A stretch of DNA of 64,000 nucleotides, from NCBI GenBank assembly GCA_016213825.1, contig JACQZP010000013.1, positions 1 through 64,000 of the forward strand. The letters are read 5' to 3'. The stretch is from Acetobacterium woodii (lineage in GTDB: Bacteria; Bacillota; Clostridia; Eubacteriales; Eubacteriaceae). Below are positions 23,914 through 54,220 of this stretch, one piece after another (position 1 is the first letter of the stretch; each line of letters opens with the position of its first letter). The notes below the pieces were generated by a model. It did not search any database, was not told the origin of the DNA, and saw only the letters and a list, made by a program, of their open reading frames with translations. A program made the translations under genes and the position numbers.

Positions 23914-24396
23914 ATGAAATGTCCGTATTGTGCGTTTGATGACAGCAAGGTGGTCGATTCACGGCCATCTGAAGAGGGGACAATGATCCGTAGACGGCGG
24001 GAGTGTAACAAATGTAATAAACGTTTCACAACCTATGAACGGGTCGAGAACATCCCTCTGATTGTTGTAAAAAAAGGTGGTCAGCGAACGGCTTTTGATA
24101 AAAATAAAATATTTAATGGGATGATCAAAGCCTGCGAAAAACGGCCAGTGCCCATTGATTCCATAAAAATTGTGGTTGATGACCTGGAACGGAAACTCTA
24201 TCAAAGCGAAATGAAGGAAGTCCCATCTTCTTTAATTGGCGAACAGGTGATGGCAGCATTAAAAACCATGGATCAGGTAGCCTATGTTCGTTTTGCGTCG
24301 GTATATCGACAATTTAAAGATGTAGCCTCGTTTATGGATGAGCTGGAGCGTCTGATTTCAGAAAAACAGGCTGAGGGAATGCATGAAACAGTTTGA
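23914..24396 (+). CDS. nrdR: Transcriptional repressor NrdR
   Basis: 160 residues. A zinc ribbon formed by C3-x2-C6 and C31-x2-C34, then an ATP-cone domain (about 49-139). NrdR represses ribonucleotide reductase genes when ATP/dATP levels signal enough dNTPs, binding paired NrdR boxes. The start lies five bases after the ftsZ stop and has almost no ribosome site of its own, so translation probably depends on ribosomes leaving ftsZ. It overlaps the Nudix gene by 14 bases. No reductase gene is in the window. Confidence 0.96.
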
Positions 24397-24925
24397 AAAA
24401 ACCATAAAAAGTGAAGAAATCTACAATGGGCGGATTGTTAAGCTCAGAGTTGATGAGGTTGAGCTTCCTGATGGCAGTTTTTCTAAACGTGAGATCGTAA
24501 CCCATCAGGGTGCTGTGGCGGTTTTAGTTATCAAAGATGGCCAAATGCTCTTTGTCAAGCAATACCGTATTGCCAGTCAGCAGCTACTGACCGAAATTCC
24601 CGCTGGTATTCTTGAAATCGGCGAAGATCCTGAAGATGCCGCTATCCGGGAATGTCAGGAAGAAATTGGCTATCGCCCACTTAACTTGTTTAAATTGGGA
24701 GAATTTATTCCAACGCCAGGATATTGTACTGAAAAAATTACGCTCTTTTGCGCCACCGAATTAATCTGGGACCCGTTAGAAGAAGATGCGGATGAATTTA
24801 TCCGGGTGGTGAAAATTCCGATCCGAACAGCCAGAACTCTGTTTATTAATGGACAATTCATCGATGGTAAAACGGTAGCTGCGCTGGGATACTATTTTTC
24901 GATTGCGGCCAGAGAGTGTTTATAG
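24383..24925 (+). CDS. Nudix hydrolase, ADP-ribose pyrophosphatase type
   Basis: 180 residues. The Nudix box is complete: G-x5-E-x7-REC-x-EEIG-Y at about 71-93. A proline 16 residues after the box (EFIPTPGY) is typical of ADP-ribose pyrophosphatases. It most likely splits ADP-ribose into AMP and ribose 5-phosphate. ADP-ribose arises from NAD use, for example by the sirtuin in this window, but the two genes are far apart. It overlaps nrdR by 14 bases and ends before a long hairpin. Confidence 0.88.
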
Positions 24926-24945: not shown

Positions 24946-25000
24946 TGAATAGATGGTTTATTTCAATGCAGAGCATTAGAATGAATCATCTATTTTGTAT
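24946..25000 (+). terminator. Long imperfect hairpin after the Nudix gene
   Basis: AATAGATGGTTTATT pairs with AATGAATCATCTATT with a few G-T pairs, and an inner AATGC-AGA-GCATT hairpin caps it. The sequence then reads TTTTGTATT. This probably ends the dcw-nrdR-Nudix transcript, though the T-tract is interrupted. Confidence 0.5.
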
Positions 25001-25040
25001 TATGCATCAAAGAATGAACGCATAAGTTAAGGAGAAATTA

Positions 25041-25148
25041 ATGAAAAGCAAATTTTGTTTAGAGTCGAACTGGGATTTTGTTAAAATTTCCAGACTAAGA
25101 AAATCAGCTGCAAGAAATTATGTAATGAGGTGGGTAGATCATGTTTAA
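25041..25148 (+). CDS. Small 35-residue ORF upstream of the site-2 protease
   Basis: An ATG with an excellent ribosome site (TAAGGAG, 6 bases upstream) opens a 35-codon frame that begins MKSKFCLESNWDFVK and ends NYVMRWVDHV. The product is basic and aromatic, with no membrane helix. The stop codon lies inside the first codons of the site-2 protease gene, an eight-base overlap, so translation of the two is probably coupled. It may be a real small protein or a leader peptide that controls the protease. I do not recognise it; conservation in relatives would decide. Confidence 0.55.
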   Translation: MKSKFCLESNWDFVKISRLRKSAARNYVMRWVDHV

Positions 25149-25782
25149 TTTTACCCCGGACTATTTTTTCAATCTGCTCTTAAGCCTGCCGGGAATTTTG
25201 ATTGCCATTAGTTTTCATGAAATGGCTCATGGTTACGCAGCTGATTCAATGGGCGATCCAACCCCCAAAAATGCTGGGCGTTTAACCTTAAACCCCCTTA
25301 AACACATCGATCCACTGGGATTTTTGTCGATGCTCTTATTCCGCTTTGGATGGGCTAAACCAGTGCCAGTCAACCCCGGAAACTTCAAAGACCGAAAAAA
25401 AGGAATGATTGTAGTCTCTTTAGCTGGGGTTATTACTAATTTAATCCTTGGTTTTTTTGGGATGGCCGCTTATTTGGCAGTAGTTCCCTTGAATAATGAA
25501 GTCCTGCTGATTGTTTTACAGTATGTTTATATTTATAATATTATGTTTGCGGTGTTTAATATCATTCCCATTCCACCCTTGGATGGATCTCAGATTCTAG
25601 AATTGTTTTTACCGCCAAAGGCGAAGATGACCTATTATAAATATCAGCGGTATGGAATGATTGCAATTTTTGTTCTGGCCCTGACTGGATTGTTGGGAAT
25701 CATCATTAACCCCGTTATTAATGGAATAGTGAGTCTGTTTTCGACGATTTTATTGCCAATTTTCAATCTAATCTGGTCTTAA
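25141..25782 (+). CDS. Site-2 protease family membrane metalloprotease
   Basis: 213 residues with about five to six membrane helices. The zinc motif is H26-E-M-A-H30 in the first helix region, and the second metal-binding segment is NIIPIPPLDGSQIL near residue 140, both typical of the short M50 family. Such proteases cut substrates inside the membrane. The short form lacks a PDZ domain, unlike RseP, and its substrate is unknown. It lies two bases before scpA, and a small ORF overlaps its start. Confidence 0.9.
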   Translation: MFNFTPDYFFNLLLSLPGILIAISFHEMAHGYAADSMGDPTPKNAGRLTLNPLKHIDPLGFLSMLLFRFGWAKPVPVNPGNFKDRKKGMIVVSLAGVITNLILGFFGMAAYLAVVPLNNEVLLIVLQYVYIYNIMFAVFNIIPIPPLDGSQILELFLPPKAKMTYYKYQRYGMIAIFVLALTGLLGIIINPVINGIVSLFSTILLPIFNLIWS

Positions 25783-25784
25783 CA

Positions 25785-26525
25785 ATGGCATATGCGGTAA
25801 GTTTAGATGGATTTGAAGGTCCATTAGATCTTTTAATCAATCTGATTCAGAAAAACAAAATTGATATTTGTGATATTCCCATCTCAACCATCACCAATCA
25901 ATATTTATTACAGATTAGAACCTGGCAGGATATGGATATGGATGTGGCCAGCGAATTTATTGTTATGGCAGCCCGATTGTTGGAGATAAAGGCCAAAGCC
26001 CTGCTTCCCAAAAATGAAGAAGCAAAAGAAGATGAAGAAGATCTGCAGGCTAAGCTTGTTCGCCAATTGGTGGAATATAAAATTTTTAAAGAGATCAGTT
26101 ATTATTTTCAGTCGCAGGAGCAGCGGGAACTAGGCGCTATTTATCGAGATCCGGAGTATATTCCTCAGAACATGGAAGAAGCGCCATTGGTTATTGATCC
26201 TTATTCGTTGGAACAATGTTTTAAGCGTCTGCTTTTTGAGCGAGAAGAAGAAATAGAGGCCATGGCTCCGCCCCAAAAGATCATCCGGGAATTGTTCAGT
26301 ATCGAAGAAAAGATTGCCGAAATAACTGAGATTCTGGTTCAGGCAGGAGCGTCAGGTGTCAGCTTCTCAGAACTGCTGCACCCGGATATTTGCCGGGAAG
26401 AGGTGGTAGTGACCTTGTTGTCGCTGCTTGAAATGGTTAAAACCAGCGGTTTGCGACTGCTTCAAAACCGGGTATTTATTGATTTCCAAATTCACAGGGA
26501 GGTGGAGAAAAATGAACAGCGATGA
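25785..26525 (+). CDS. scpA: Segregation and condensation protein A
   Basis: 246 residues. The N-terminal family hallmark FEGPLDLLINLIQKNKIDI (about 9-27) is clear, and the C-terminal winged helix is present. ScpA is the kleisin that bridges the heads of the SMC dimer and helps chromosome segregation. Starts two bases after the protease stop and overlaps scpB by 14 bases, the usual scpA-scpB order. Confidence 0.95.
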   Translation: MAYAVSLDGFEGPLDLLINLIQKNKIDICDIPISTITNQYLLQIRTWQDMDMDVASEFIVMAARLLEIKAKALLPKNEEAKEDEEDLQAKLVRQLVEYKIFKEISYYFQSQEQRELGAIYRDPEYIPQNMEEAPLVIDPYSLEQCFKRLLFEREEEIEAMAPPQKIIRELFSIEEKIAEITEILVQAGASGVSFSELLHPDICREEVVVTLLSLLEMVKTSGLRLLQNRVFIDFQIHREVEKNEQR

Positions 26526-39204: not shown

Positions 39205-39230
39205 CATCTTCGTAGGTTAATATTAAATGC

Positions 39231-39471
39231 ATCGAGAACGAAGGCTCTAAAAAATAATTATTACAGAGAAAGAGACGTGGCTGAGAGTCTTTTATAGTGA
39301 TTTTAGAGTTGCCCCGTTCGAGCAGCTGCGAAGAAAGTTTGGAATCATTGAATGAGTATTTTCGGCCGGGAAACCGTTATTAAGAAAGTGAGTTGCAAAT
39401 TATTTTGCAGCTAATTTGGGTGGTACCGCGGATTAAACCGTCCCTTGCATGGATGCAGGGGATTTTTTTGT
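39231..39471 (+). promoter_or_regulatory. T-box leader of alaS (alanine)
   Basis: The T-box core TGGGTGGTACCGCG lies at 39418-39431, followed by the terminator TCCCTTGCAT-GG-ATGCAGGGGA and a T-run at 39463-39469. Stem I runs from GAACG at 39236 to CGTTC at 39315-39319, and its inner helix pairs CTCTAAAA with TTTTAGAG. The loop on the 3' side holds GCC at 39311-39313, an alanine codon, which is the likely specifier. The GGCTGAGAG segment near 39279 matches the distal part of stem I. Uncharged tRNA-Ala would pair with GCC and the T-box and prevent termination. Confidence 0.92.
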
Positions 39472-39542: not shown

Positions 39543-42182
39543 ATGAAACCATTAGGATTAAATGAAATCAGAGAGAAATTTTTAGTATTTTTTGAAGAAA
39601 AAGGACACTTGAGATTAAATAGTTTTCCCTTAGTACCAATTAATGACAAGAGCTTGTTACTGGTCAACTCCGGGATGGCGCCGCTAAAACCGTATTTTAC
39701 CGGCGACGAAATTCCGCCGCGAAAACGGGTAACAACCTGTCAGAAATGTATTCGAACGCCGGATATTGAAAATGTTGGGAAGACCGCCCGACACGGAACA
39801 TTTTTTGAAATGCTGGGAAATTTTTCCTTTGGCGATTATTTCAAAAAAGAAGCCATCCCCTGGGCTTGGGAATTTTGCACCGAGGTAATGGAAATACCAG
39901 AAGACAAGATTTGGATTTCAATTTATTTGGAAGATGATGAAGCTTTTGAAATCTGGAATCAGCAAGTCGGCATCCCGAAAGAACGGATTGTTCGTTTGGG
40001 TAAGGAAGACAATTTCTGGGAACATGGTTTAGGACCCTGTGGTCCCTGTTCTGAGCTTTATTTCGACCGTGGCGAGGAATATGGCTGTGACAGCCCTACC
40101 TGTGGTGTAGGTTGTGACTGTGACCGTTATGTCGAATTCTGGAACCTGGTTTTCACCCAGTTTGATAAAGATGATTCGGGCCATTATAATCTTTTGCCTA
40201 ACCCCAATATTGACACCGGGATGGGACTGGAACGACTTGCCGTTGTGATGCAGGGCGTGGGTACCATCTTCGAAATCGATACAGTCGGTCATGTGCTTAA
40301 TTATATCTGTAAAAAAGCCGGCGTAAAATATGGGGATGATCCGGCTGACGATGTCTCCATTCGGGTCATTACCGACCACATTCGCAGTGTTACCTTTATG
40401 ATTGCCGATGGCGTGATGCCAGGTAATGAAGGCCGCGGATATGTCTTAAGACGTCTGCTTCGTCGAGCGGTGCGCCACGGTAAGCTCCTGGGCATCAAAG
40501 ACTTGTTTTTGTTTGACGTCGCCAAAGAAGCCATTCGGGTTTCCCAAGATGCTTATCCTGAACTCCGAGAAAAACAGGATTTTATCCAGAAACTGATTCG
40601 CATCGAAGAAGAACGTTTTAAAGAAACCATTGACCAGGGTCTGGCGCTTTTAAATAAAGAACTGGATAAAATTATCGAAATGGAAGAAACGGTATTCCCA
40701 GGTGGGGGTGCTTTCAAACTCTACGACACCTATGGTTTTCCCTATGATCTAACCAAGGAAATTGTTGAAGAACGGGGACTTACCATTATTGCCGAAGAGT
40801 TTGAAAAAGAAATGCAGGCGCAACGCGATCGTGCCCGCCGGGATCGGCTAAATAGTGATTTAGCAGTTTGGGCAGATGATCCATTTAACCCATTGGGTCC
40901 CGATGCGGTTAATACCTTTGTGGGTTATGACAATTTGGTATCAGAAGGAAACATCATCGGACTGTATGTCGATGGAAAACTGGTTGAAGAAGCCTATGAA
41001 GGCGATGAAGTCCTGGTTCTTTTGGATCAAACCTCTTTCTATGCCGAAAGCGGTGGTCAAACCGGAGATCATGGCATCATCCAAAAGGGTGATGGGGTCA
41101 TTGAAGTCAAGGATTGTAAAAAAGGTAGCCTCAGTCGTCATATTCACTCTGGGGTTGTAAAATCAGGTAATTTCAAAGTCGGCGAAACGGTAATTACCGA
41201 AGTGAACAAAGAATTAAGAGAAGCTGTACAACGAAATCACACTTCCACCCATTTGCTACATAAAGCCCTGAAACAGGTTTTAGGTGATCATGTCGAACAA
41301 GCGGGCTCATTTGTGTCACCAGATCGCTTGCGTTTTGACTTTAACCATTTCCAGGCGATGACTCGAGCGGAAAAACGTCAGGTTGAAGATATTGTTAATG
41401 CGGCTGTTTTAGAAGCCTATGATGTATCAATCTTTGAAACGAATATTGATAAAGCCAAAGAATTTGGGGCAACTGCATTATTTGGAGAAAAGTATGGTGA
41501 AATTGTCCGGGTTGTCAAAGTTGGCGACTTTAGTACCGAACTTTGTGGAGGATGTCATATCAGTAATTCTTCAAAAGTTGGCTTGTTTAAAATCATCAGT
41601 GAGGGCGGCGTGGCTGCCGGTGTCCGTCGGATTGAAGCGGCAACTGGGTTTAATGCGCTCCACCTGGTCGAGAAAATGGATGATACCCTTATTGATGTAT
41701 CAAACTTGATGAAAACAAACCCAGATCAATTGCTGGAAAAAGTGACTGAATTAAACGAGACCAATAAACAGAAGGAACGGACGATTGCCCAACTTAAACA
41801 AAAATCGGCGGGAAATGCTATTATGGAAATCCATCAGAAAATGGTCCTGATTAATGGCATCCAGGTGACCATTGCCGAAGTCGAAAAAATGCCGATGGAA
41901 GAACTGCGAACCCTGGGTGATTTACTTAAAGATCGGATGGGGTCAGGGGTTGTCCTGCTGGGAAGTGCTCTTGATGACAAGGTTAATTTTGTTGCAACTG
42001 CAACTCCAGATATTGTCAAACGTGGCTTCCATGCTGGTAAAGTCATTAAGGAAGTGGCGACGGTAGCAGGTGGAGGTGGCGGTGGACGTCCAGATATGGC
42101 GCAAGCTGGAGGAAAACTTCCCGAAAAACTGGCAGAATCCCTTGCAAAGGGAGAGACATGCATTCAGGAGCAGTTGAATTAA
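39543..42182 (+). CDS. alaS: Alanyl-tRNA synthetase
   Basis: 879 residues, full length. Aminoacylation domain (about 1-240) with the TVNSGM-like segment LVNSGMAPLKPYF and the ARHGTFFEMLGNFSFGDYF motif; the editing domain has the zinc ligands HTSTHLLH near residue 565 and CGGCH near residue 665; a C-Ala/DHHA1 domain ends the protein with the glycine-rich GGGGGGRPDMAQAGG. It loads alanine on tRNA-Ala. AAGGAG lies 7 bases before the ATG. Expression is set by the T-box leader just upstream. Confidence 0.98.
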   Translation: MKPLGLNEIREKFLVFFEEKGHLRLNSFPLVPINDKSLLLVNSGMAPLKPYFTGDEIPPRKRVTTCQKCIRTPDIENVGKTARHGTFFEMLGNFSFGDYFKKEAIPWAWEFCTEVMEIPEDKIWISIYLEDDEAFEIWNQQVGIPKERIVRLGKEDNFWEHGLGPCGPCSELYFDRGEEYGCDSPTCGVGCDCDRYVEFWNLVFTQFDKDDSGHYNLLPNPNIDTGMGLERLAVVMQGVGTIFEIDTVGHVLNYICKKAGVKYGDDPADDVSIRVITDHIRSVTFMIADGVMPGNEGRGYVLRRLLRRAVRHGKLLGIKDLFLFDVAKEAIRVSQDAYPELREKQDFIQKLIRIEEERFKETIDQGLALLNKELDKIIEMEETVFPGGGAFKLYDTYGFPYDLTKEIVEERGLTIIAEEFEKEMQAQRDRARRDRLNSDLAVWADDPFNPLGPDAVNTFVGYDNLVSEGNIIGLYVDGKLVEEAYEGDEVLVLLDQTSFYAESGGQTGDHGIIQKGDGVIEVKDCKKGSLSRHIHSGVVKSGNFKVGETVITEVNKELREAVQRNHTSTHLLHKALKQVLGDHVEQAGSFVSPDRLRFDFNHFQAMTRAEKRQVEDIVNAAVLEAYDVSIFETNIDKAKEFGATALFGEKYGEIVRVVKVGDFSTELCGGCHISNSSKVGLFKIISEGGVAAGVRRIEAATGFNALHLVEKMDDTLIDVSNLMKTNPDQLLEKVTELNETNKQKERTIAQLKQKSAGNAIMEIHQKMVLINGIQVTIAEVEKMPMEELRTLGDLLKDRMGSGVVLLGSALDDKVNFVATATPDIVKRGFHAGKVIKEVATVAGGGGGGRPDMAQAGGKLPEKLAESLAKGETCIQEQLN

Positions 42183-51523: not shown

Positions 51524-52246
51524 GTGTTTAATATTGCGATATGCGACGATCAGGTTGCAATCTGTTCGGCAATTGAAAATATTATTTTAGAATATCAAGA
51601 ATTAACCTTGCAGGATATCCAAATTGAAGTATTTTATTCAGCTGAAAAACTCGGCGTTTTTATGGAACATCAACATAATTTTGATTTGATCTTTCTAGAC
51701 ATCGAAATGAAAGGTTTAAATGGACTCGAACTGGGACGGAAAATTCGTGAAGAGATGGATAATCAAATCACCCAGATTGTCTACGTTTCTGGCAGAGACA
51801 GTTATTTCAGAGAGTTGTTTGAGGTTCGACCGATGAATTTTCTGTCAAAACCGGTGGAGCCGGATAAGGTGATTAAAGATATCGAGCTGGCAATGAAATT
51901 GATAAATCGTTTAGGTGGTCTTTTTAGCTACAAAAAAGGATCGGATACACATAAGCTTCCCATAAAAAACATCATTTATTTTCAAAGTATAAACAGAGAA
52001 ATTAAAATTGTGACCACAACCGGGGAAGAATTGTTTTATGGAAAACTGCAGGATGTCTTTCATCAAGTTGCTAAGTATCAATTTATGAATATCCATAAAT
52101 CGTACATTGTTAATTATGAATACATCGCCAAGTTCAGGTATGACGAGGTTGTGATGTCTAATTCGGTTTGTCTGCCTATCAGTCAGTTAAAACGAAAAGA
52201 AGTCAGAGGCTTACAGATGAAATTTGAAAACGAGCGGTTTCTTTGA
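51524..52246 (+). CDS. LytTR-family response regulator, orphan
   Basis: 240 residues. Receiver domain (about 1-120) with acidic pair D8/D9, phospho-acceptor D59 in LIFLDIEM and lysine in FLSKPVEP. A LytTR DNA-binding domain (about 138-238) follows. LytTR regulators usually pair with a GHKL-type kinase encoded next door; none is intact here. GTG at 51524 is favoured over GTG at 51515 because AAGG lies 8 bases upstream of it. The stop codon overlaps an ATG (TGATG), the usual layout for a coupled kinase gene, but that frame closes after 11 codons. Confidence 0.88.
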   Translation: MFNIAICDDQVAICSAIENIILEYQELTLQDIQIEVFYSAEKLGVFMEHQHNFDLIFLDIEMKGLNGLELGRKIREEMDNQITQIVYVSGRDSYFRELFEVRPMNFLSKPVEPDKVIKDIELAMKLINRLGGLFSYKKGSDTHKLPIKNIIYFQSINREIKIVTTTGEELFYGKLQDVFHQVAKYQFMNIHKSYIVNYEYIAKFRYDEVVMSNSVCLPISQLKRKEVRGLQMKFENERFL

Positions 52247-52338
52247 TGGATTTTATAAAACTTGCCAGGGTGAACGTCTAAGAGTGGAGAAACAATCTCC
52301 AACAGCGAATAAAAATGCAAGCTAACATGGGGGCTTGA
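52246..52338 (+). pseudogene. Candidate decayed kinase gene after the LytTR regulator
   Basis: The regulator stop overlaps an ATG. That frame reads MDFIKLARVNV, a stop codon, then EWRNNLQQRIKMQANMGA and a second stop. The piece RNNLQ resembles the RNHLQ helix that follows the active histidine in GHKL-type kinases, but the histidine itself is missing. I read this as a badly deleted partner kinase; it could also be chance. Confidence 0.3.
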
Positions 52339-52378
52339 AAAGATAAAAACTGTTTTATAAAAATATGATCGTTCGATG

Positions 52379-52408
52379 GATATTACCCAGTGGGGTAATA
52401 TCTTTTCG
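52379..52408 (+). terminator. Terminator downstream of the LytTR gene
   Basis: A perfect 10-base stem (GATATTACCC and its complement) with a 4-base loop, followed by TTTTCGG. Confidence 0.8.
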
Positions 52409-52722
52409 GTTTCTCTGCTATTGTTTGTATAGATGGTTGTTGCGAGCATTCTTTTAATATGATTGCTCGCTTTTTATTTAAATTAAAAAACCTTAGTTCA
52501 CTACAAAAAAATATATTATTTTCAACACAATCTGGCACAAATGAAAATGTGTGGTAGATTTAGGCAGGTAAAAGATAAAAAAAGGGGATCTGCTGACGGA
52601 GTTAGAGCCATTGGTCGTAGTGAATCCCGTATTTGATCATGTTTTTTTGCAAATAATGTACCAATAACATGTAGCAGAGATTACTATTATCCTGTAATAT
52701 TTATAAACTCATAGGAGAATTT
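52409..52722 (+). other. AT-rich intergenic region with a coding remnant
   Basis: About 310 bases with no intact gene. At 52572-52667 one frame stays open for 31 codons with protein-like composition (GDLLTELEPLVVVNP then VFDHVFLQIMYQ, stop) but has no start codon and follows a stop. It looks like a leftover of an earlier gene. No clear promoter for 52723 was found. Confidence 0.35.
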
Positions 52723-53253
52723 ATGAAAGATCAATCAAAAAAAAACTTGATAATAATCTGTTACTCTACCTTACTTGCAATAATGCCAATAATTATAATT
52801 TCCATAATGCCTTTATTTAAGCAAAAGATCAATGCATATGCTGACAGTCTTTGGATATCTAATACAGGTATTTTGAACATAGATCCTTTTCTATATCCCA
52901 ATTATGTGAATTATTTTTCTGGATTATTGACGGGTCTTCTTGCTGGAATAATATTATTTTTTATTATTCGAAATATCTCATCTTATGCCAGTCTACCTGC
53001 AATGATTGGTTGTGTAATTGGTATTCTTTTTTCTTTAATCGGTTGTTTAAGTTTCTTGGCTTTTTTGGGTCTCGATTCATATTTTAGTACATTAGTTTAT
53101 AAAATATCATTAAATGAATTTTTTACTTCTTATGATTCGGCGATGCTTTTTAAAGTCAGTCTAATATTAATTGTTTATTTGTTTATATTGATTGAACTTT
53201 TCCGTCTGAAAAATGAAAAAAAGTGGTATTCTATCAAAAATCCAAATACTTAA
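52723..53253 (+). CDS. Hypothetical membrane protein
   Basis: 176 residues, about four membrane helices (roughly 9-30, 62-84, 88-113 and 140-160). AT-rich codon use sets it apart from the housekeeping genes on both sides. ATAGGAG lies about 7 bases before the ATG. No family is recognised. It is the first of a set of small membrane proteins read in the same direction. Confidence 0.6.
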   Translation: MKDQSKKNLIIICYSTLLAIMPIIIISIMPLFKQKINAYADSLWISNTGILNIDPFLYPNYVNYFSGLLTGLLAGIILFFIIRNISSYASLPAMIGCVIGILFSLIGCLSFLAFLGLDSYFSTLVYKISLNEFFTSYDSAMLFKVSLILIVYLFILIELFRLKNEKKWYSIKNPNT

Positions 53254-53289
53254 TCTGTAGTATTCACAAAAACATAAAGGTGAGTTTTA

Positions 53290-53334
53290 ATGGCGGGGAC
53301 CTCTCGCGATTTCCAGATGCCTGAATCACTTTGA
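53290..53334 (+). other. 14-codon mini-ORF with a ribosome site
   Basis: AAAGGTGAG precedes an ATG that opens MAGTSRDFQMPESL and then a stop. Its GC content is higher than the AT-rich surroundings. It may be a scrap of an older gene or a leader peptide. Low confidence. Confidence 0.2.
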
Positions 53335-53356
53335 TGCAAGGATGAAGGGAAATGTA

Positions 53357-53539
53357 ATGATTGATTGGATTTATATTATATATGCTATTCTAGGTTTTCT
53401 TTTCTTGAAGAACACAATAAAATTTTTCTTATATTATCGAAAAGAGAATGCAAAAGCTAATAGAAATTTAGGGATATTATATTTAGTGCTTTTTATGTTG
53501 ACAATTATTGTAATAGCTACAAAAATAATGAAGTTATAA
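53357..53539 (+). CDS. Small hypothetical membrane protein (60 residues)
   Basis: 60 residues with two membrane helices (about 3-20 and 38-56) joined by a basic, polar loop (YYRKENAKANRN). The ATG at 53357 has AAGGGAAA upstream; an in-frame ATG at 53342 is less well placed. AT-rich like its neighbours. No family recognised; the size and shape resemble small accessory subunits of membrane complexes or toxins and their partners, but that is only an analogy. Confidence 0.5.
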   Translation: MIDWIYIIYAILGFLFLKNTIKFFLYYRKENAKANRNLGILYLVLFMLTIIVIATKIMKL

Positions 53540-53647
53540 TTTTATGAGATCATAAAAATAGTGGTAAGGTTGATTGTCATGTATGCTTATATAAAATGCA
53601 CAAAGTTAATATGTGACTGAAAGCAATGATGGAAAGGGGTGAGTAAT

Positions 53648-54220
53648 GTGAGATTCCTATTAGAAAAAATTCCGAAAAATGATAATTTTGATCCTGAGAT
53701 TGAGGGTTATCATGCTATCGGTAAGCCAAGCTTTTTAAAACTTTGCTTGATGGCAATGCCAGTTATTGTTATATCGATTTTTATAATTGGGTTAATGTTA
53801 AAGATCCGGTTTGGAGCTGATTATCATTTGAGTATGACAAATAGTTGGCGAGATGTCTTTTTATTCGTAGCTTTGATTCCAATTCATGAAATGCTGCATG
53901 TAATAGTATATCCCGATCGGATTTCGTTTGCAGAGATTTTCATTGGTAGTTATCAAGGGTCAATTTATCGATCTTTTTTAGGAGACATAAAAAAAGAACG
54001 GCTATTATTGCAGCTCATATTTCCGATCATTATTTTAACGGTGGTACCGATCCTAATGCTATTGATCTTAAATGTAAATTATCCACTTTTGTCAAAAATT
54101 GCCTTGATGAATATGGTTCTATCGAGTATGGATGTCATATCATTTGCTGGTGTATTAAGAAAAATACCGGCAAATGCGAAAGTTCGGAATAAAGGGGAGC
54201 GTTCATATTGGAAATTATAG
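53648..54220 (+). CDS. DUF3267 membrane metalloprotease-like protein
   Basis: 190 residues, about four membrane helices. H80-E-M-L-H84 is an HExxH zinc motif placed at the start of a helix, as in the DUF3267 family of putative zinc proteases. The substrate is unknown. The start is GTG; I chose 53648, because AAAGGGG sits 9 bases upstream, over GTG at 53639. It belongs to the same AT-rich group of membrane proteins. A protease beside small membrane proteins suggests peptide processing or quality control, by inference only. Confidence 0.7.
   Translation: MRFLLEKIPKNDNFDPEIEGYHAIGKPSFLKLCLMAMPVIVISIFIIGLMLKIRFGADYHLSMTNSWRDVFLFVALIPIHEMLHVIVYPDRISFAEIFIGSYQGSIYRSFLGDIKKERLLLQLIFPIIILTVVPILMLLILNVNYPLLSKIALMNMVLSSMDVISFAGVLRKIPANAKVRNKGERSYWKL

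Follow-up and report, generated by a model that had tools for sequence, protein, structure and literature searches.

The window, the whole 64,000-nt stretch of Acetobacterium DNA that was analyzed, contains a small open reading frame (smORF) directly in front of a gene for an M50 metalloprotease. Table 1 lists the features of this locus. The smORF follows the conserved NUDIX hydrolase gene, and the M50 gene is followed in the same row by a gene which we take to encode ScpA. The TAA stop codon of the smORF occupies 25146-25148 and the M50 ATG begins at 25141, so that the two genes overlap by 8 nt (25141-25148).

Table 1. Features at the smORF-M50 locus of the window
Feature	Position	Strand	Description
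NUDIX hydrolase gene	24383..24925	+	conserved upstream neighbour; Pfam PF00293
Conserved 22-bp AU-rich RNA hairpin	24947..24995	+	between NUDIX and smORF; in 19/19 genus genomes
Shine-Dalgarno AAGGAG of smORF	25029..25034	+	6 nt 5' of ATG; position of lysA SD in relatives
Small ORF (smORF), 35 codons	25041..25148	+	ATG..TAA, product MKSKFCLESNWDFVKISRLRKSAARNYVMRWVDHV; most likely a lysA that suffered an internal deletion and then eroded
GAGGTG, M50's own Shine-Dalgarno	25127..25132	+	inside smORF 3' end; duplex energy -10.4 kcal/mol
Predicted local hairpin, stem GGGUAGA/UUUACCC	25130..25157	+	M50 start codon in loop; fold prediction
M50 (site-2-type) metalloprotease gene, 213 aa	25141..25782	+	Pfam PF02163 Peptidase_M50, 44 bits; in 19/19 genus genomes
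Downstream gene of same row	25785..26525	+	from the ORF list

An earlier note had described a 35-codon ORF that overlaps the start of the site-2 protease gene. Its coordinates, the Shine-Dalgarno (SD) sequence AAGGAG and the 8-nt overlap were all verified, and we agree, judging by eye, that the product is not a simple hydrophobic leader. The overlap alone is weak evidence, because the M50 start ATGTTTAAT holds a TAA in the smORF frame; the stop of the smORF is supplied by ATGTTTAA at the M50 start. When the 215-nt gap was resampled with a first-order Markov model, and the ORF end was allowed to fall from -5 to +20 of the M50 start, an ATG ORF of 20 to 70 codons with a 6-base SD appeared in 18 of 20,000 resamples. 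With the looser demand for any of four 4-base SDs, 331 of 20,000 carried a comparable ORF.

The 35-aa product had no match in Pfam or NCBIfam, and it lacks the full decarboxylase domains of a functional diaminopimelate decarboxylase (LysA; TIGR01048). A repeat or mobile element was rejected, as the gap sequence occurs only once in the genome it comes from (the one other match covered 14 bases, with E 4.8). A known RNA family at the gap was also rejected, with no Rfam match at gathering score.

The place of lysA in the gene row

In all 16 of the other family genomes examined, lysA lies directly before the M50 gene, and the NUDIX gene precedes lysA in 15 of them. These 16 belong to the 18 other family genomes in a set of 61 genomes (in G027 the M50 gene lies at a contig edge, and G031 gave no M50 match); family genomes G061-G063 stand outside this count. 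The lysA stop in the 16 genomes falls from -32 to +8 of the base aligned with the M50 start of the window, and the lysA gene of locus L022, whose product ends in ..GEQHV, overlaps M50 by the identical 8 nt. Ten of 24 genomes from other families of the order were also taken; within the stretch taken, lysA was found upstream of M50 in nine, and its stop lay within 63 nt of M50 in seven. The lysA match at L091 (G056, 1701-2961) consists of two tblastn pieces in different frames, which may be a frameshift or an assembly error.

The spacing between NUDIX and M50 is too short for lysA in 19 of 19 Acetobacterium genomes, and where a smORF is present it holds the place of lysA in the row. The SD of the smORF stands where the lysA SD of relatives stands, as the lysA start of L024, ..AAGGAGAAACTGAATG, shows. 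The 21 bases TTAAGGAGAAATTAATGAAAA at the smORF SD of the window copy (L001) are identical in L013, a copy that most likely comes from A. woodii.

We found no LysA above the TIGR01048 cut-off in any of the 19 Acetobacterium genomes, compared with 11 of 14 control genomes. A divergent LysA homologue, about 27-30% identical, is encoded elsewhere in 17 of the 19, with scores of 271-286 bits against a cut-off of 297.9; as for the exceptions, G006 has none and G018 has a 58-bit match. This LysA-like protein is possibly a replacement diaminopimelate decarboxylase. In one genome (G000:C10, L036 1453-2706, minus strand), the divergent homologue adjoins a TrmB-like regulator and an AzlD-like ORF, both named by eye.

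Traces of LysA were then sought in the smORF products with HMMs of the two LysA ends (residues 1-22 and 362-425), using 4000 composition shuffles for each of nine of the ten ORFs (L002, which has the same peptide as L003, was left out). With the C-end HMM, none of 4000 shuffles scored as well as L012, L015 or L016; with the N-end HMM, the numbers of shuffles as good were 0 for L021, 1 for L012 and 4 for L015. The 76-codon ORF of L012 (A. paludosum) and L015 (A. tundrae) carries an N-end (GHDTV, in LysA register) and then a C-end (TGAYN..NR..KG), in LysA order, and residues 24-65 of L015 align with positions 371-412 of the LysA HMM (LQTGAYNDLIVRKSNRL.. on lntGaynysmasnynrl..). This ORF thus reads as two LysA ends with about 350 codons missing. 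L016 has the C-end alone (N-end, 2194 of 4000 shuffles as good), and L021 has the N-end alone (C-end, 2114 of 4000).

The window ORF itself gave a borderline score: 134 of 4000 shuffles were as good over both ends (p about 0.03), 133 over the C-end and 1151 over the N-end. Over both ends, 402 shuffles equalled L003, 1090 equalled L013 and 1453 equalled L017, while L020 had no score. Because the HMM results of L013, L017 and L020 were not significant or gave no score, the LysA identity of these copies rests on position.

Position-specific matrices (PSSMs) gave a related picture. The N-end PSSM, built from 22 of 24 LysA N-ends (L084 was too short and L086 lacked the motif), was passed by L012, L015 and L021; L001-L003 and L020 were marginal (115-199 of 5000 at width 10; 183 of 5000 for the window in the sliding test), and L013, L016 and L017 did not pass. 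When the register was fixed (residues 5-14, one ORF per lineage for seven lineages), 0 of 20,000 randomizations equalled the N-ends; p was 0.0001 without L012 and 0.02 without both L012 and L021. Taken singly, the fixed-register p was 0.26 for the window and a marginal 0.04 for L013. Among the ten ORFs, L016 alone passed a PSSM of the last 26 LysA residues (24 distinct of 27 tails), also after the W column was removed; the C-end match of L012 and L015 lies further in than these residues. The full-length LysA HMM (21 proteins, L023 with an untrimmed upstream stretch) gave a best smORF E of 0.5 in a search of 10,010 targets, and shuffled sequences scored nearly as well.

It may be supposed that the ORF arose de novo in the gap, unrelated to lysA. 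The window copy taken alone is not clearly LysA-like, and L013 and L017 are not significant, as this reading would have it. However, LysA ends stand at the same place in L012, L015, L016 and L021, and the N-ends are in LysA register. The sequence comparisons thus disfavour a de novo origin for those four, and we consider such an origin highly improbable for the smORF as a whole. What ties the window copy to LysA appears to be mainly its position, together with its relatedness to the L013 ORF. Taken together, the order of the locus and the LysA ends in relatives argue strongly that the smORF originated as a gutted lysA.

Retention of the reading frame and drift of the peptide

The earlier note had named conservation of the frame in relatives as one check on its proposal. 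An SD-led ATG ORF ending on the M50 start was found in 10 of the 19 genus genomes, in seven separate lineages that are distant from one another at synonymous sites, and is absent from nine. The smORF has 35 codons in L001-L003 and L013, 28 in L016, 25 in L017, 22 in L020, 30 in L021 and 76 in L012 and L015. In the window and the nine further genomes, the ORF has its own start signals and a stop that overlaps or abuts the downstream start, as a coupling leader does; the junction is an 8-nt overlap in 7 of the 10 smORFs and TAATG in 3. Eight of the genomes without the smORF (L004-L011, including A. dehalogenans L006 and A. wieringae L008) form one clade in the NUDIX/M50/ScpA tree, and their ORF is broken or lacks an SD. 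In the ninth (L014, A. fimetarium) the ORF has collapsed to 3 codons. L021 (G006) has about 200 nt more than the window between the upstream hairpin and the stub, from about 381 to 85 nt before M50.

To judge this retention, we simulated neutral evolution along the NUDIX/M50/ScpA tree with 4-fold branch lengths (1500 runs per rate), the tree being rooted by choice between L017/L020 and the rest. "Intact" was defined more loosely than in the genome count: any of five 4-base SDs, an ATG, GTG or TTG start, and a stop from -20 to +10. At least 10 intact ORFs of 19 appeared in 0 of 1500 runs at the full 4-fold rate, in 0 of 1500 at half that rate, and with frequencies of 0.0007 at a quarter and 0.18 at a tenth; the test hangs on the assumed rate, and the deep branches are saturated and poorly estimated. 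The count of 10 in 19 is a fairer one than 7 in 7 lineages, which was picked after seeing the data.

These numbers bear on an alternative in which the smORF is plain gene ruin: a decaying lysA fragment without function, its open frame a matter of leftover time. The nine genomes without an intact ORF are in keeping with such decay, as is the M50 gene's own SD in every genome, and neutral retention would not be rare if the local rate were a tenth of the 4-fold rate. Such a low rate is unlikely, because only 51% of the nucleotides agree between the ORFs of L001 and L013; despite this divergence, the open frame and SD persist in seven lineages. In near pairs, dN is not clearly below dS (0.038 to 0.055 and 0.035 to 0.082, from few changes: 3 nonsynonymous and 1 synonymous in L001/L003, 6 and 4 in L012/L015), which also accords with decay. 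On balance we consider plain ruin unlikely. The L001/L003 smORFs differ at 4 of 99 bases, against an M50 dS of 0.19, and this low divergence is possibly due to a slower local rate or to constraint at the nucleotide level.

The peptide tells a different story from the frame. The earlier note had suggested a small partner of the protease, which would make the smORF a fast-evolving functional small protein that assists or regulates M50. Three of the 21 lineage pairs have clearly alike peptides: L001/L013 (13 identities of 35, z 7.2, equal length), L017/L020 (z 5.8) and L016/L017 (z 4.2). The L001/L013 smORF also gave a dN of 0.65 against a saturated dS of 2.6 (NG86), values unlike those of the near pairs. 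Against this, the L001/L013 differences are spread over the codon positions as 18/14/17, of 33 each, with no codon periodicity. Peptide length varies between lineages, from 22 to 76 aa, most of the peptides are unlike one another, the window peptide belongs to no Pfam or NCBIfam family, and nine genomes have M50 without an intact ORF. We therefore depart from the earlier suggestion and regard a functional small protein as very improbable. A frame that is kept while its peptide is free to change fits, by analogy, the pattern expected of a coupling leader.

The M50 start, the upstream hairpin and a possible coupling leader

A usable SD of its own precedes M50 in all 19 genus genomes. The idea that M50 needs coupling for want of an SD is thereby ruled out, and coupling cannot be essential; the smORF is dispensable, being absent in nine genomes whose M50 gene has its own SD. 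The M50 SD is on average stronger where the smORF is kept (-11.2 versus -8.8 kcal/mol), the duplex energies being computed against an assumed anti-SD.

The local hairpin predicted at the M50 start of the window had an energy of -7.7 kcal/mol in a 50-nt fold and an opening cost of 6.6-9.7 kcal/mol, and it recurred in a second, separate fold. Across the genus, the mean cost of opening the M50 start at three fold sizes was 6.8, 7.7 and 7.2 kcal/mol where the smORF is kept and 4.6, 4.5 and 4.6 kcal/mol where it is not; p was 0.010, 0.0029 and 0.0022 when counted by genome, and 0.053 when counted by lineage. L013 is an exception (4.5-5.2 kcal/mol, smORF kept). In the M50 gene of L013, roughly the first eight codons appear to be duplicated in tandem (MFNFMPDY FNLTPEYF, L013 1477-1530).

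The hairpin between NUDIX and the smORF is more conserved than its flanks and ends 45 nt before the smORF. Among its 13 distinct sequences, one pair is changed on both sides and one cell is broken; the remaining stem changes are A-U/G-U or C-G/U-G exchanges, and nearly all keep the pairing. No strong match to the hairpin was found elsewhere in 101 genomes. Weak matches in these genomes under stricter filters (best E 9.7e-4 outside the genus and 6.6e-4 elsewhere inside it) were taken as chance. Several other family genomes have, by eye, different hairpins with T runs before lysA, and we take the Acetobacterium hairpin as the successor of the NUDIX-lysA intergenic element. It could be a terminator, a processing site or a regulatory element.

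Such conservation raises the alternative that RNA is under selection, with the hairpin and leader controlling the M50 transcript and the ORF as a by-product. The presence of the hairpin throughout the genus, its pairing-keeping changes and the low L001/L003 divergence at both site classes would agree with this. However, the hairpin lies 45 nt from the ORF and is equally well kept in genomes without it, which leaves the retention of the frame unexplained, and a simple terminator scan did not flag it. We judge selection on RNA to be a rather unlikely account of the smORF. Attenuator leader peptides are likewise short ORFs before a gene. An attenuator leader was rejected here, since the same scan found no terminator-like site on the plus strand around the smORF; the locus also differs from attenuators in that its conserved hairpin lies upstream of the ORF.

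The explanation that we favour, with somewhat better than even confidence, is that the smORF is a stub of a gutted lysA which still acts in cis as a coupling leader for M50, its peptide being irrelevant. The order of the locus, the LysA ends in relatives and the retained frame are seen in the sequences; we infer from them a single ancestral deletion, translation of the stub, coupling and a benefit of coupling. The family ancestor would have had the row NUDIX, hairpin, lysA and M50, with lysA reaching nearly to the M50 start or overlapping it. An in-frame deletion in the Acetobacterium ancestor would have removed most of lysA, about 350 of 425 codons if the 76-codon copy of A. paludosum and A. 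tundrae is a guide. The ribosome site and start codon of lysA would thus have been left fused to its last part and to the M50 junction, and the 35-codon ORF of the window would be that stub after long drift.

Under the coupling-leader proposal, ribosomes would load at the former lysA SD, translate the stub and terminate on the M50 start; there they might open the start region or re-initiate, so that M50 translation would be coupled to the stub while the stub peptide itself would have no specific role. The earlier note had taken the ribosome site and overlap as pointing to real translation and coupling. This is plausible in that frame, SD and junction are kept in 10 of 19 genomes, although the overlap alone proves little; from the sequences, we hold coupling of M50 to the stub to be an evenly balanced question. 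It is conceivable, if doubtful, that selection preserved three things of lysA (its ribosome site, its frame and its stop junction) to serve the protease as a translation ramp of no particular sequence, with the genus-wide hairpin setting the transcription of the unit.

Translational coupling occurs between adjoining operon genes whose stop and start overlap or lie close. A junction of this form stands between lysA and M50 in the relatives, and here the upstream partner is a stub of 22-76 codons. A closer likeness is CbrX-CbrA of Pseudomonas putida, in which, according to the accessible text of PMC6591292, a small upstream ORF in another frame overlaps the start of a membrane protein gene, and translation of cbrX rather than the identity of its peptide drives cbrA. 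As described there, cbrX is highly conserved, its overlap is 17 nt, and cbrA has no recognizable SD. The stub, in contrast, derives from an enzyme gene, has a drifting peptide, precedes an M50 gene with its own SD and is missing from roughly every second genome of the genus. Coupling has been demonstrated for CbrX-CbrA (PMC6591292, same text), whereas for the smORF and M50 it is proposed from sequence. Decayed genes have also been described as a source of gene remnants and small orphan ORFs (PMC2374718 and PMC2447293, in their accessible parts). The smORF resembles them as a short ORF left by a lost gene, but unlike a randomly decaying gene it has retained its start signals, its frame and the stop junction in 10 of 19 genomes.

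The smORF thus looks ordinary but most likely has an unusual past, as the remains of a gutted lysA whose open frame, running into the protease start, survives in roughly half of the Acetobacterium genomes. If this is true, small ORFs can arise not as new proteins but as stubs of lost operon genes that go on helping to translate the gene behind them, which could explain some of the unconserved yet translated ORFs before bacterial genes. The genus would then offer a natural species series, from 76 codons with both LysA ends through shorter stubs and a 3-codon relic to full loss, and such a series allows coupling to be tested. It also carries a caution, as a strong SD and an overlap should not be taken as a sign of a functional microprotein.

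For A. woodii, Ribo-seq and dRNA-seq data are publicly available (PRJEB33460; PMC8407422 and PMC7873083), and the accessible text of these two papers does not mention the locus. In genome G009, most likely that of A. woodii, the 35-codon ORF spans C1:1127705-1127812. A search by title and the start of the abstract found no literature on the locus or a lysA stub, and a search for Acetobacterium woodii with diaminopimelate decarboxylase found none either; subscription papers lay mostly outside both searches. Elsewhere in the window, Rfam matched a T-box leader (39223-39448, 105 bits) before the large ORF at 39543, and a 5S rRNA. The GC content of 52001-54000 was low, 0.31 compared with 0.38-0.41 in the neighbouring segments.
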